This document shows, in pieces, positions 33,512 through 35,082 of a stretch of 64,000 bases of DNA (position 1 is the stretch's first letter; each line of letters opens with the position of its first letter). Under the pieces are notes generated by a model. It was not told the DNA's origin, searched no databases, and saw nothing but the letters and a program-made list of their open reading frames with translations. This stretch comes from Lachnospiraceae bacterium (GTDB lineage: Bacteria > Bacillota > Clostridia > Lachnospirales > Lachnospiraceae). The DNA lies in assembly GCA_030526195.1 (NCBI GenBank), contig JAUNDG010000004.1, positions 81,467 to 145,466 of the forward strand, in the 5' to 3' direction. Both the position numbers and the translations under genes were made by a program.

Positions 33512-34114
33512 ATGGGAAAACCAAATACTATCTTCGGTTACGTCAGGGTATCATCAATTGATCAGAATGAGGATAGGCAAATGCTCGCTCTGCAGAGCAT
33601 CCCTGTGCCTATGGGAAACATCTACCGCGACAAGCTGTCCGGCAAGAACTTCGAACGGCCTCAATACCGCAAAATGGTTCGAAAAATGAAAGCTGGCGAC
33701 CTCCTTTATATCCTCAGCATCGATCGTCTCGGCCGTAACTACGAGGAGATACAGAATCAGTGGCGCATCTTAACCAAAGAAAAAGGCATCGACATCTGTG
33801 TGCTCGACATGCCGCTTTTAGACACTCGGCAGGGCAAAGATCTGATGGGGACATTTATTGCTGATCTGGTGCTGCAGATTCTTTCCTTCGTTGCACAGAA
33901 TGAGCGTGACAATATCAGAAAACGACAGGCTCAAGGCATTGCAGCAGCAAAAGCAAGAGGTGTCTTGTTCGGACGTCCCAAAAAGAGAAAGCCGGAAAAC
34001 TTTGAAGAATTGATTAGAAAAAGAAAAGCTGGTGTCCTGACAATAATGGATATACAGAAAGAGTGCGATGTGTCATCGGCAACAATTTATCGCTGGATGA
34101 AAAAGACAAAATGA
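33512..34114 (+). CDS. Serine recombinase, Hin/Pin-type DNA invertase-like
   Basis: 200 residues, the size of Hin/Gin-type invertases and small resolvases. The catalytic serine is in [16 protein letters not shown] (about residue 14). Further marks are [31 protein letters not shown] and the E-helix region [22 protein letters not shown]. The C-terminus is a helix-turn-helix ([21 protein letters not shown]). AAGGAG lies 9 bases before the ATG. Two inverted 26-bp crossover-like sites lie immediately downstream, so inversion of the 134-base segment is its most likely job. The gene is richer in A and T than the flanking chromosome, suggesting transfer. Confidence 0.88.
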
Positions 34115-34138
34115 AGGACAGAAGATAAGTAAATGAAG

Positions 34139-34177
34139 GGATTCTCAAAAAGTGTACCTTTTGAGAATCCTTTTCTT
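34139..34177 (+). terminator. Terminator of the recombinase gene, overlapping the left crossover site
   Basis: GGATTCTCAAAA/TTTTGAGAATCC stem, 8-base loop, then TTTTCTT. The T-run lies inside the invertible segment, so inversion would change what follows the hairpin. Confidence 0.7.
34142..34167 (+). promoter_or_regulatory. Left invertase crossover site (candidate IRL)
   Basis: 26 bases: half-site TTCTCAAAAAGT, central GT (34154-34155), half-site ACCTTTTGAGAA. This is the 12-2-12 layout of hix/gix-type sites, and the AAAA/TTTT cores match them. It agrees at 20 of 26 positions with the inverted site at 34276-34301. Confidence 0.75.
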
Positions 34178-34289
34178 ATACATATTTTACTGTTTCAGAT
34201 GTCAGTTTTCAATAAACAGAACTGTTTTGTGCATAAAAATAAGATAATGATGAGATACAGGCCACTATATGTCATTCATCAAAAGGTAC
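34154..34289. other. Candidate invertible promoter segment
   Basis: About 134 bases between the centres of the two inverted crossover sites. It contains no gene, only a sigma-A-type promoter on the reverse strand. Inversion maps position x to 68443 minus x, placing the promoter's -35 at 34231-34236 and -10 at 34254-34259 on the forward strand, about 46 bases from the next gene. Confidence 0.7.
34184..34212 (-). promoter_or_regulatory. Promoter inside the invertible segment, pointing left
   Basis: Reverse-strand -35 TTGAAA (34212-34207), 17-base spacer, -10 TAAAAT (34189-34184). In this assembly it reads toward the recombinase, antisense to it, and away from the DUF2971 gene. Confidence 0.7.
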
Positions 34290-34301
34290 ACATTTTGAGG
34301 T
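34276..34301 (-). promoter_or_regulatory. Right invertase crossover site (candidate IRR)
   Basis: Reverse-strand reading: ACCTCAAAATGT, central GT (34288-34289), ACCTTTTGATGA. Same central dinucleotide as the left site but opposite orientation, as inversion requires. Its outer arm overlaps the GAGGTGG ribosome site of the next gene. Confidence 0.75.
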
Positions 34302-34311
34302 GGCAGAACTT

Positions 34312-35082
34312 ATGAAAAACGACTTCTTTAGTCAAGGATTTTCAAATAGCGAAGAACTCTCAAACGCATTAAAGCAAAAGGCTTCACGACATACAAACTA
34401 CAAAATGTATACATCGTTGAACTATGCCAGACATATTTCCAATGATGGATTCTTGTATTTGACTAACGGGCAAAACTGGAATGACACTTTTGATAGATGG
34501 TGTATGGCGGAAAGAAAGGTCTTTTCTATTTGTTTCACTGCTGCGATAAGTGAGAATATTGCTCTTTGGATGCTATATGGTGCAAATAGAGGAAAAAACG
34601 GAGCGATGTTGAACTTTACACGCACTATGCTACGTGAAATATGCGAAACAAAACAGATTGAAATTGGAGAGATGGATGCACAATATGTATTTACACCAAA
34701 GCATAGAATTGAGTTATTGAAAGATGAGTACGACATTTTTTTGACTGATGTTGTGTATTTCGACAGTTGTCAGAATGAAAAATATAAACTATCTGTTGGA
34801 GAAAGCCATGGGGTCTTCTTTGGATCTATCGTTAACCATCCGGATATTTTTGTGAAGAAATACCCATGGTCCTATGAAAAAGAATGTCGTTTAGTTATCC
34901 GTCTATCAAAAAACTGGATGGAGAAGATTGAAAATGATTCATGTACGCATGTGAAAATAACTATTCCGGAGAAAGTAAAAACGGAACTAGGTAACAATCG
35001 CTTGATTCGCTCACCAATCTATGAAGGAAATGCGGACATTGGCAGACCGAGCTTATTGACTGGTGATGTTGAGTGGAATTGA
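34312..35082 (+). CDS. DUF2971 family protein
   Basis: 256 residues. DUF2971 marks are present: YTSLNYARHISNDGFLYLTN then NWNDTFD, VFSICFTAAISENIALWMLYG, and YPWSYEKECRLVIR. The family has no assigned biochemical role and is often found in accessory or defence-associated loci. Codon and base use are AT-rich. I start at ATG 34312, with GAGGTGG 8 bases upstream; the ribosome site overlaps the right crossover site. No forward promoter of quality is visible in the present orientation. The SPFH gene follows after 47 bases. Confidence 0.8.
   Translation: MKNDFFSQGFSNSEELSNALKQKASRHTNYKMYTSLNYARHISNDGFLYLTNGQNWNDTFDRWCMAERKVFSICFTAAISENIALWMLYGANRGKNGAMLNFTRTMLREICETKQIEIGEMDAQYVFTPKHRIELLKDEYDIFLTDVVYFDSCQNEKYKLSVGESHGVFFGSIVNHPDIFVKKYPWSYEKECRLVIRLSKNWMEKIENDSCTHVKITIPEKVKTELGNNRLIRSPIYEGNADIGRPSLLTGDVEWN

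Follow-up and report, generated by a model that had tools for sequence, protein, structure and literature searches.

Small serine invertases are, to our knowledge, known mainly from Fis-dependent systems of enterobacteria and phages and from Mpi in Bacteroides, and Fis itself is, as far as we know, absent from Clostridia. Several described systems bear on the locus presented here. Hin requires an enhancer bound by Fis (PMC3798978). The cwpV switch of Clostridioides difficile (RecV) is predicted to form a terminator hairpin where inverted repeat and segment join, but only when OFF, and in the fim switch of Escherichia coli a Rho-dependent terminator ends the fimE message in one of the two phases (both PMC2784873). 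The regions on which Mpi of Bacteroides acts are scattered and number at least thirteen (PMC5903667), and inverton groups with unpublished motifs have been described from Firmicutes_A, the most significant invertase link there being to a tyrosine-type group (PMC11892184). Here we describe a locus in a 64,000-nucleotide stretch of a Lachnospiraceae bacterium (GenBank assembly GCA_030526195.1, contig JAUNDG010000004.1, positions 81,467 to 145,466, forward strand), referred to below as the window. With a probability that we put at roughly 0.86, this locus is a self-contained phase-variation cassette composed of a recombinase gene, two inverted sites, and an invertible promoter that stands in the OFF orientation.

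Recombinase, inverted sites, and promoter

The recombinase gene (33512 to 34114, plus strand) encodes a Sin-like serine recombinase of 200 amino acids, a predicted invertase with matches to Pfam Resolvase (97.7 bits) and HTH_7 (29.4 bits). Downstream of the gene are two 26-bp sites with a 12-2-12 layout, recognized from the sequence, a repeat search, their uniqueness, and their occurrence in relatives. The left site (34142 to 34167, plus strand) reads TTCTCAAAAAGT-GT-ACCTTTTGAGAA with its central GT at 34154 to 34155, and the right site (34276 to 34301), which is inverted, reads ACCTCAAAATGT-GT-ACCTTTTGATGA on the minus strand with its central GT at 34288 to 34289. Inverted 26-bp sites with an identical asymmetric core are what Hin and Gin use, and the half-site TNTCAAAARGT presumably resembles the hix half-site. 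With up to 3 mismatches, the inner 20-mer occurs at two places in the 2.54-Mb assembly of 43 contigs, both of them here, while a reversed-pattern control gave 0 and 0, and 100 shuffles of the window gave 0 matches. The predicted invertible segment (34154 to 34289) measures 134 bp from center to center, about 13 helical turns, a length supported by the spacing periodicity in relatives. It contains a leftward, hence OFF, promoter, TTGAAA-17-TAAAAT (34212 to 34184, minus strand), which was found by promoter scan and scored 10.0 bits leftward versus -3.5 rightward with the profile described below. The recombinase gene, the paired 26-bp sites with central GT, and the leftward promoter between them had all been named in a first-pass annotation and were confirmed, except that the sites share 21 of 26 bases and not 20.

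Relatives of the recombinase were compared at 103 loci (L numbers), comprising 13 from the same and related genomes, 80 of 556 confirmed genome_contigs matches, and 10 viral contigs; the weaker matches L015 to L031 were left out. Removal of the duplicates L005, L115, and L117 gave 100 loci, of which 93 were testable in having 250 bp or more of sequence after the stop codon. Where an analysis required it, L037 (N gap), L077 (near copy of L070), and L113 (promoter deleted) were dropped as well, and the sites of L002, L005, and L051 were entered by hand. The 80 genome_contigs loci are mostly from Clostridia-type bacteria, with one labelled Bacteroides sp. Two sites of the form TCAAAARGT-NN-ACYTTTTGA were present in 54 of the 93 testable loci; within genome_contigs, a pair list requiring matching dinucleotides held 53 of 75 testable loci. 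The first site mostly lies within 30 bp of the recombinase stop, with exceptions at 171 to 292 bp in L075, L082, and L083, and right sites score, by eye, about as well as left ones. Elsewhere in the loci, single sites scoring at least 12 numbered 85 in 534,649 bp. Two prophage contigs (L125 and L135) carry both recombinase and site pair, and in a third (L132) the sites are present with no recombinase match. Of 392 genomes from the order, 2 matched the strict pair pattern; this is an undercount, since even the window does not fit that pattern exactly.

The central dinucleotide lies outside the site score. Its two copies agree, in inverted reading, in all 54 pairs; it is asymmetric in 53 of them, every one inverted and none direct. 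GT and AC prevail, and AG, TT, AA, and the symmetric AT, which occur once each, match within their pair. Serine recombinases need dinucleotides matched in this way for strand exchange.

Judged from the sequence between 33350 and 39800 alone, promoter-like sites (11 versus 11.4 expected) and terminator-like ones (6 versus 5.0 expected) are no more frequent than chance predicts, so the reality of both rests on their conserved position in relatives. A Gibbs search over both ends of the 54 segments returned a single profile, TTGca-17-TATAAT with TG before the -10 element, that mostly ends 15 to 19 nucleotides from a site; the distance from the promoter to the site it faces is about equal in either orientation. 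As scored, the promoter points toward the recombinase in 49 loci and toward the downstream gene in 5 (L042, L053, L061, L079, and L113). The ON orientation is clear, by 24 to 30 bits, in the first four of these; in L113 the segment has shrunk to 91 bp with loss of the promoter (4613 to 4723 of that locus), and this is probably a locked switch. L038 has a profile score of zero, and its promoter points rightward by eye, with which the hairpin flanks agree. The final tally of the 54 loci is about 48 OFF, 5 ON, and 1 without a promoter. Leave-one-out margins averaged 21.8 bits and exceeded 10 bits in 47 of 54 loci, compared to 4.0 to 6.5 bits and 2 to 11 of 54 in five letter-shuffled controls, and when labels were randomly swapped, the orientation was recovered in 53 of 54.

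A promoter that faces both ways among relatives is the comparative signature of inversion. The first-pass annotation had staked its reading on conservation of the sites beside homologous recombinases and had called for both orientations to be sought in related genomes; the pairs described above provide the one, and the 5 ON loci among 54 provide the other. Like an inverton, the locus has a promoter flanked by inverted repeats, and both orientations occur in nature, across homologous loci only. Among near relatives, an alignment of inter-site DNA found the same orientation in all 8 pairs scoring at least 50. BLAST gave one inverted match, 51 bp at 80% identity with the site included, between L061 (ON) and L070 (OFF), and only a weak match without sites. 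Among the 80 genome_contigs loci, contig ends fell within 100 bp behind the recombinase stop in 4 cases and within 100 bp before its start in none (6 versus 2 within 300 bp), and L095, which is 95 to 98% identical to L087, breaks off shortly after the left site. Such assembly breaks may come from both orientations being present together, and other causes are possible.

The protein itself falls elsewhere than the sites would suggest. Among solved sequences, it matches Sin/Tn552 bin3 (108 bits) ahead of gamma-delta resolvase (70 bits) and the DNA-invertase chains 4m6f and 3uj3 (67 bits), and it reached 50 bits with the NCBIfam Mpi model NF009949, whose cutoff is 272. The earlier label of Hin/Gin type thus suits the sites and not the protein, which by its sequence stands outside the Hin/Gin family, although Hin-type invertase action on Hin-like sites is what we propose. 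Its open reading frame is full length with both Pfam domains intact, and R12, S14, D71, R72, and R75 presumably correspond, by eye, to the catalytic residues of serine recombinases. A quick tree of 105 rows, in which 55 of 102 inner forks were poorly supported and some branches long, placed the Fels-2 invertase L147 (annotated Cin/Gin-like) and the resolvase-like L146 from a P1 record outside all others (98% SH-aLRT), with the plasmid rows L140, L142, and L145 on a branch of their own apart from the cassette recombinases (97% SH-aLRT). L146 was considered as the Cin invertase and rejected; it is annotated as a mobile element protein and is followed by a large second one, which better fits a transposon resolvase, and it was not counted as an invertase in the comparisons. 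Relatives of the window recombinase at 52 to 54% identity sit on plasmids, one of them adjoining a Tn3 transposase. A second recombinase in the same genome, 62% identical and on contig C7, is followed by its own diverged inverted site pair and by an open reading frame with a lipoprotein-like start (by eye), for whose product a Pfam scan found no family.

Predicted terminator hairpin, site spacing, and rival explanations

The left site is also the core of a terminator-like hairpin, a feature overlooked in the first-pass annotation. Together with its flanks it forms a hairpin at 34139 to 34170 (minus strand), within a wider inverted repeat at 34136 to 34173, as indicated by terminator scan, repeat search, and folding; a scan of the window places this leftward hairpin in the immediate path of the leftward promoter. 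The predicted folding energy is -19.4 kcal/mol in the present orientation versus -7.2 kcal/mol at the right site once the segment is flipped in silico. The same arrangement recurs in relatives. At OFF loci, pairing between the left site's outer flank and the promoter-side inner flank extends over a mean run of 5.55 of 10 positions beyond the 20-mer, while 2000 permutations of flanks among 47 loci gave 1.71, with a maximum of 2.60. For the 5 ON loci the run was 1.8 as found and 5.6 if flipped back, a change dominated by L038 (0 to 9) and L061 (2 to 10), with L053 going from 2 to 4 and L042 (4) and L079 (1) unchanged.

Folding gave a comparable picture across 52 loci, in 47 of which the ON form is the computed flip. 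At the hairpin met by the promoter transcript, the mean energy was -18.4 kcal/mol in OFF and -8.9 kcal/mol in ON; the OFF form was the more stable by over 2 kcal in 43 of 52 loci, in none was it less stable by that margin, and a hairpin with a U-rich tail was present in 43 of 52 OFF forms versus 3 of 52 ON forms. The natural ON loci L038, L042, and L061 reached -34.4, -16.1, and -22.1 when flipped to OFF, versus -11.5, -6.5, and -11.0 as found. On the recombinase message, too, this position resembles a terminator, in 30 of 52 OFF forms and 7 of 52 ON forms. The switch would accordingly be more than a promoter, also building and breaking a predicted terminator.

The distances between site centers cluster near 126, 136, 147, 157, 168, and 178 bp, steps of about 10.4 bp that correspond to the helical repeat of DNA. 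Under 200 bp (n = 54), the best period was 10.35 bp (R = 0.71), reached by 0 of 2000 jittered sets, and with the main peak removed it was 10.45 bp (R = 0.70, n = 27), again reached by 0 of 2000. Spacings of 257 and 802 bp were set aside, and this first test used L150 as 137 bp (138 by its coordinates) and L037 as 151 bp (N gap). Tests with one locus per recombinase cluster, made without L150 and L037, gave P values of 4e-8 at 85% identity (n = 38) and 9e-5 at 78% (n = 26). The spacings of close relatives differ by whole turns; L060, L074, and L078, each more than 95% identical to the next, have 147, 157, and 167 bp. Our reading is that the two sites have to come together on one face of the helix within a small loop. 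Since a repressor acting by looping would produce an equal signal, the spacing alone is no proof of inversion.

From these features we propose the following mechanism. The recombinase would cut at the central GT of both inverted sites, which probably meet across a short, helically phased loop of about 12 to 17 turns, and flip the 134-bp piece between them. In OFF, the promoter would fire leftward into the hairpin terminator made of the left site and its matching flanks, and the downstream genes, encoding DUF2971, SPFH, and TIR proteins, would receive no promoter transcript. After the flip, the promoter would read rightward, and the flank that completes the hairpin would be joined to an unpaired right-hand flank; with the terminator gone, transcription would pass through the right site into the genes. 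The hairpin that possibly ends the recombinase message would be broken by the same flip. Since the promoter in OFF is parked against a likely stop, inversion would both turn the promoter and dismantle the stop. Catalysis of inversion, the expression states, and the extent of the operon are inferred here.

Several observations weigh against this reading. Flipping in this organism is inferred from comparison of sequences. Only 5 of 54 loci show the ON orientation, and no ON locus forms a same-species pair with an OFF locus. Orientation calls are weak, with margins below 10 bits, in L002, L080, L088, and L092 and absent in L038, and a second sampler run was weaker (18.7 bits, 44 of 54 loci above 10 bits, 9 on the minority side). 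L079 is without a hairpin effect (-3.4 kcal/mol in OFF versus -5.0 in ON), and the effect in L053 is small (-9.2 versus -7.6). Clustering at 74% weakened the spacing signal (n = 16, P = 0.005, reached by 45 of 1000 jittered sets). In 39 of the 93 testable loci, two canonical sites were lacking in the searched span, 11 having one and 28 none. L079 is among the 39 although it has a pair, around an 802-bp segment, and a motif-free search recovered variant pairs in at least L006, L009, L064, L096, and L110; at the other noncanonical loci no site pair was detected, this search included.

Much of the evidence bears on what else the locus might be. If the palindromes were operators, at which the recombinase or another dimer represses itself and the downstream promoter by looping, their symmetry and helical phasing would be expected without any inversion. 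Operators have no need of a matching inverted dinucleotide, however, and the 53 asymmetric pairs are all inverted, down to the rare dinucleotides that match within their pair; moreover, the promoter occurs in both orientations, and in L038 and L061 the flank pairing moves along with it, which makes repression by looping quite improbable. A transposon or plasmid remnant, with the recombinase as its resolvase and the sites as res, would account for Sin as the nearest solved relative and for the relatives on plasmids and beside a Tn3 transposase. This we consider very improbable: a Pfam scan of six proteins from 30190 to 39527 finds no transposase, resolution needs direct repeats whereas the asymmetric pairs are all inverted, a conserved promoter lies between the sites, and the plasmid rows branch apart in the quick tree. 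It is scarcely credible that the left palindrome serves only to end the recombinase message, as its terminator-like form in 30 of 52 loci would allow, with the right palindrome incidental, given that right sites are helically spaced, carry the matching dinucleotide, and score by eye like left ones.

A switch that was once active and no longer flips in this strain, leaving the genes permanently silent, is unlikely. Some loci are indeed degraded, such as L113 without its promoter and L132 without a recombinase match, and most loci are OFF. In the window, however, the recombinase is full length with both domains, the sites, promoter, and hairpin are all present, and two matching inverted 26-bp sites should decay if unused. 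The invertible promoter switch put forward in the first-pass annotation, OFF in this assembly, is supported by the conservation of the sites, by their inverted dinucleotides, and by the loci in the opposite orientation.

Genes behind the proposed switch and neighboring elements

The first gene behind the switch (34312 to 35082, plus strand) encodes a DUF2971 protein (Pfam PF11185, 28 bits, cutoff 22). ATG 34312 is a likelier start than GTG 34300, which falls inside the site; a Shine-Dalgarno-like GAGGTGG (34297 to 34303, plus strand) overlaps the right site and would lie 8 nucleotides before that ATG. After a 47-bp gap follows a gene for an SPFH (Band_7_1) and zinc-ribbon protein (35130 to 36638, plus strand), and after a further 63-bp gap one for a TPR-TIR_2-DUF6273 protein (36702 to 39527, plus strand), both assigned by Pfam. 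The SPFH and TPR-TIR genes are probably in one transcription unit with DUF2971, and the genes controlled, now OFF, are probably these three. Among 61 genomes (this one and 60 relatives), the DUF2971 gene was found in this genome only, and viral contigs had none; a search of solved structures returned nothing useful for DUF2971 and TPR matches only for the TIR protein. A defense system was considered and is not claimed, PADLOC matches being weak (17 bits at best).

Relatives carry similar cassettes ahead of unrelated genes, which looks like the mark of a portable on/off switch. There were 49 pairs of loci with a recombinase block at least 76% identical, and 22 at 80% or more (17 loci, hence nonindependent); by tblastx, related DNA was found downstream in 3 of the 22, upstream in 3, and on neither side in 16. 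Cassettes that are 80 to 88% identical can precede unrelated genes. In L052/L059, L043/L044, and L060/L114, homology sets in no more than 8 bp from where the recombinase match starts and stops no more than 17 bp from the right site. In L074/L078 (82% over 4681 bp), it stops 12 bp past the left site in L074, and in L056/L076 (95% over 3567 bp), it stops 4 bp into the left site. The sites may act as joints for exchange, and retention of the sites by selection while neighbors are replaced is another reading.

First genes were chosen mechanically at 56 loci, as the longest open reading frame starting within 400 bp, so that some may be wrong, and 40 were scanned. Pfam matches at an E value of 0.001 or less were found for 30 of the 40 proteins, 4 of them (L042, L062, L063, and L088) below the curated cutoff. 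They include LRR_5 (4), VWA/pilin-like, dockerin, collagen, glycosyltransferase, SPFH (2, each the first gene after the switch, in L067 and L075), and MmeI-like methylases (2, below cutoff). The last are L062 and L088, where the switch precedes weak matches to the MmeI DNA-methyltransferase domain, which suggests phase-variable modification. More tentatively, at somewhat less than even odds, we picture a portable element of about 0.8 kb in many Clostridia-type bacteria, in which a Sin-like invertase would work without a distant enhancer by means of a short whole-turn loop, promoter and terminator would be toggled together, and the sites would serve as joints for placing the element before, or exchanging, unrelated targets such as surface proteins, possible modification methylases, and SPFH-TIR genes.

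Other features were noted at the locus and in its relatives. A terminator-like hairpin precedes the recombinase gene (33413 to 33443, plus strand; inverted-repeat and terminator scans), and before it are four copies, at 83- to 85-bp spacing, of an interrupted palindrome, GTCTGTCC-N21-GGACAGAC. This palindrome forms clustered arrays in the window (32984 to 33276 and about 62885 to 63651) and on contigs C4, C9, C19, C21, C31, and C39 of the same genome; with up to 2 mismatches it occurs at 26 places in the genome versus 1 for a reversed control. An Rfam scan of 32500 to 35200 gave no match. The genome also has an HU-type gene. In L079, a second recombinase gene lies inside the 802-bp segment (4601 to 5454), a Hin-like arrangement. 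The prophage contigs L126 to L131, L133, L134, and L136 to L139 each hold one exact copy of the 20-bp palindrome, mostly intergenic; in L126 and L131 the left flank of the site is common and the right flank different. These contigs look Bacillus-like.

Comparison with described systems

The cassette can be set beside Hin and Gin, of the Salmonella flagellar switch, phage Mu, and relatives, which likewise pair a small serine recombinase with inverted 26-bp 12-2-12 sites, a promoter being what Hin inverts. It differs in that its protein is nearer Sin and its recombinase gene lies outside the segment, save for the second copy in L079, and the Hin segment is about 1 kb in length, versus about 135 bp here. 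No counterpart of the Fis-bound enhancer of Hin is known for the cassette, though no search was directed at one. Sin itself, the closest solved sequence together with Tn552 resolvase, resolves directly repeated res sites that have accessory sites; the cassette shares the protein similarity and has single inverted sites in place of direct repeats. CwpV shares the terminator predicted only in OFF, found here by folding only; there the recombinase is of the tyrosine type and encoded elsewhere and the promoter is outside the segment, while in the cassette an adjacent serine recombinase accompanies a promoter inside it. The fim switch also combines an invertible promoter with neighboring recombinases, which are of the tyrosine type. 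With Mpi and the invertons of gut bacteria, the cassette has in common a serine recombinase (Mpi) and invertible promoters.

Overlap with the inverton groups of PMC11892184 is possible, and it is quite possible that some of our loci have already been detected as invertons. In a literature search covering the main text of mostly open-access papers, five site strings went unmatched, and among the papers listed no title or opening of an abstract concerned a Clostridial promoter switch with a serine recombinase.

The helical-turn rule for spacing is a precise and cheaply testable prediction on how such an invertase pairs its sites, and a cassette so small and self-contained would suit as a memory element for anaerobes. 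Set beside the described systems, the Clostridial family would bring enzyme, sites, promoter, and terminator together in one compact unit with readable ON and OFF states, so that assemblies or metagenomic reads could be used to score many genes as on or off.

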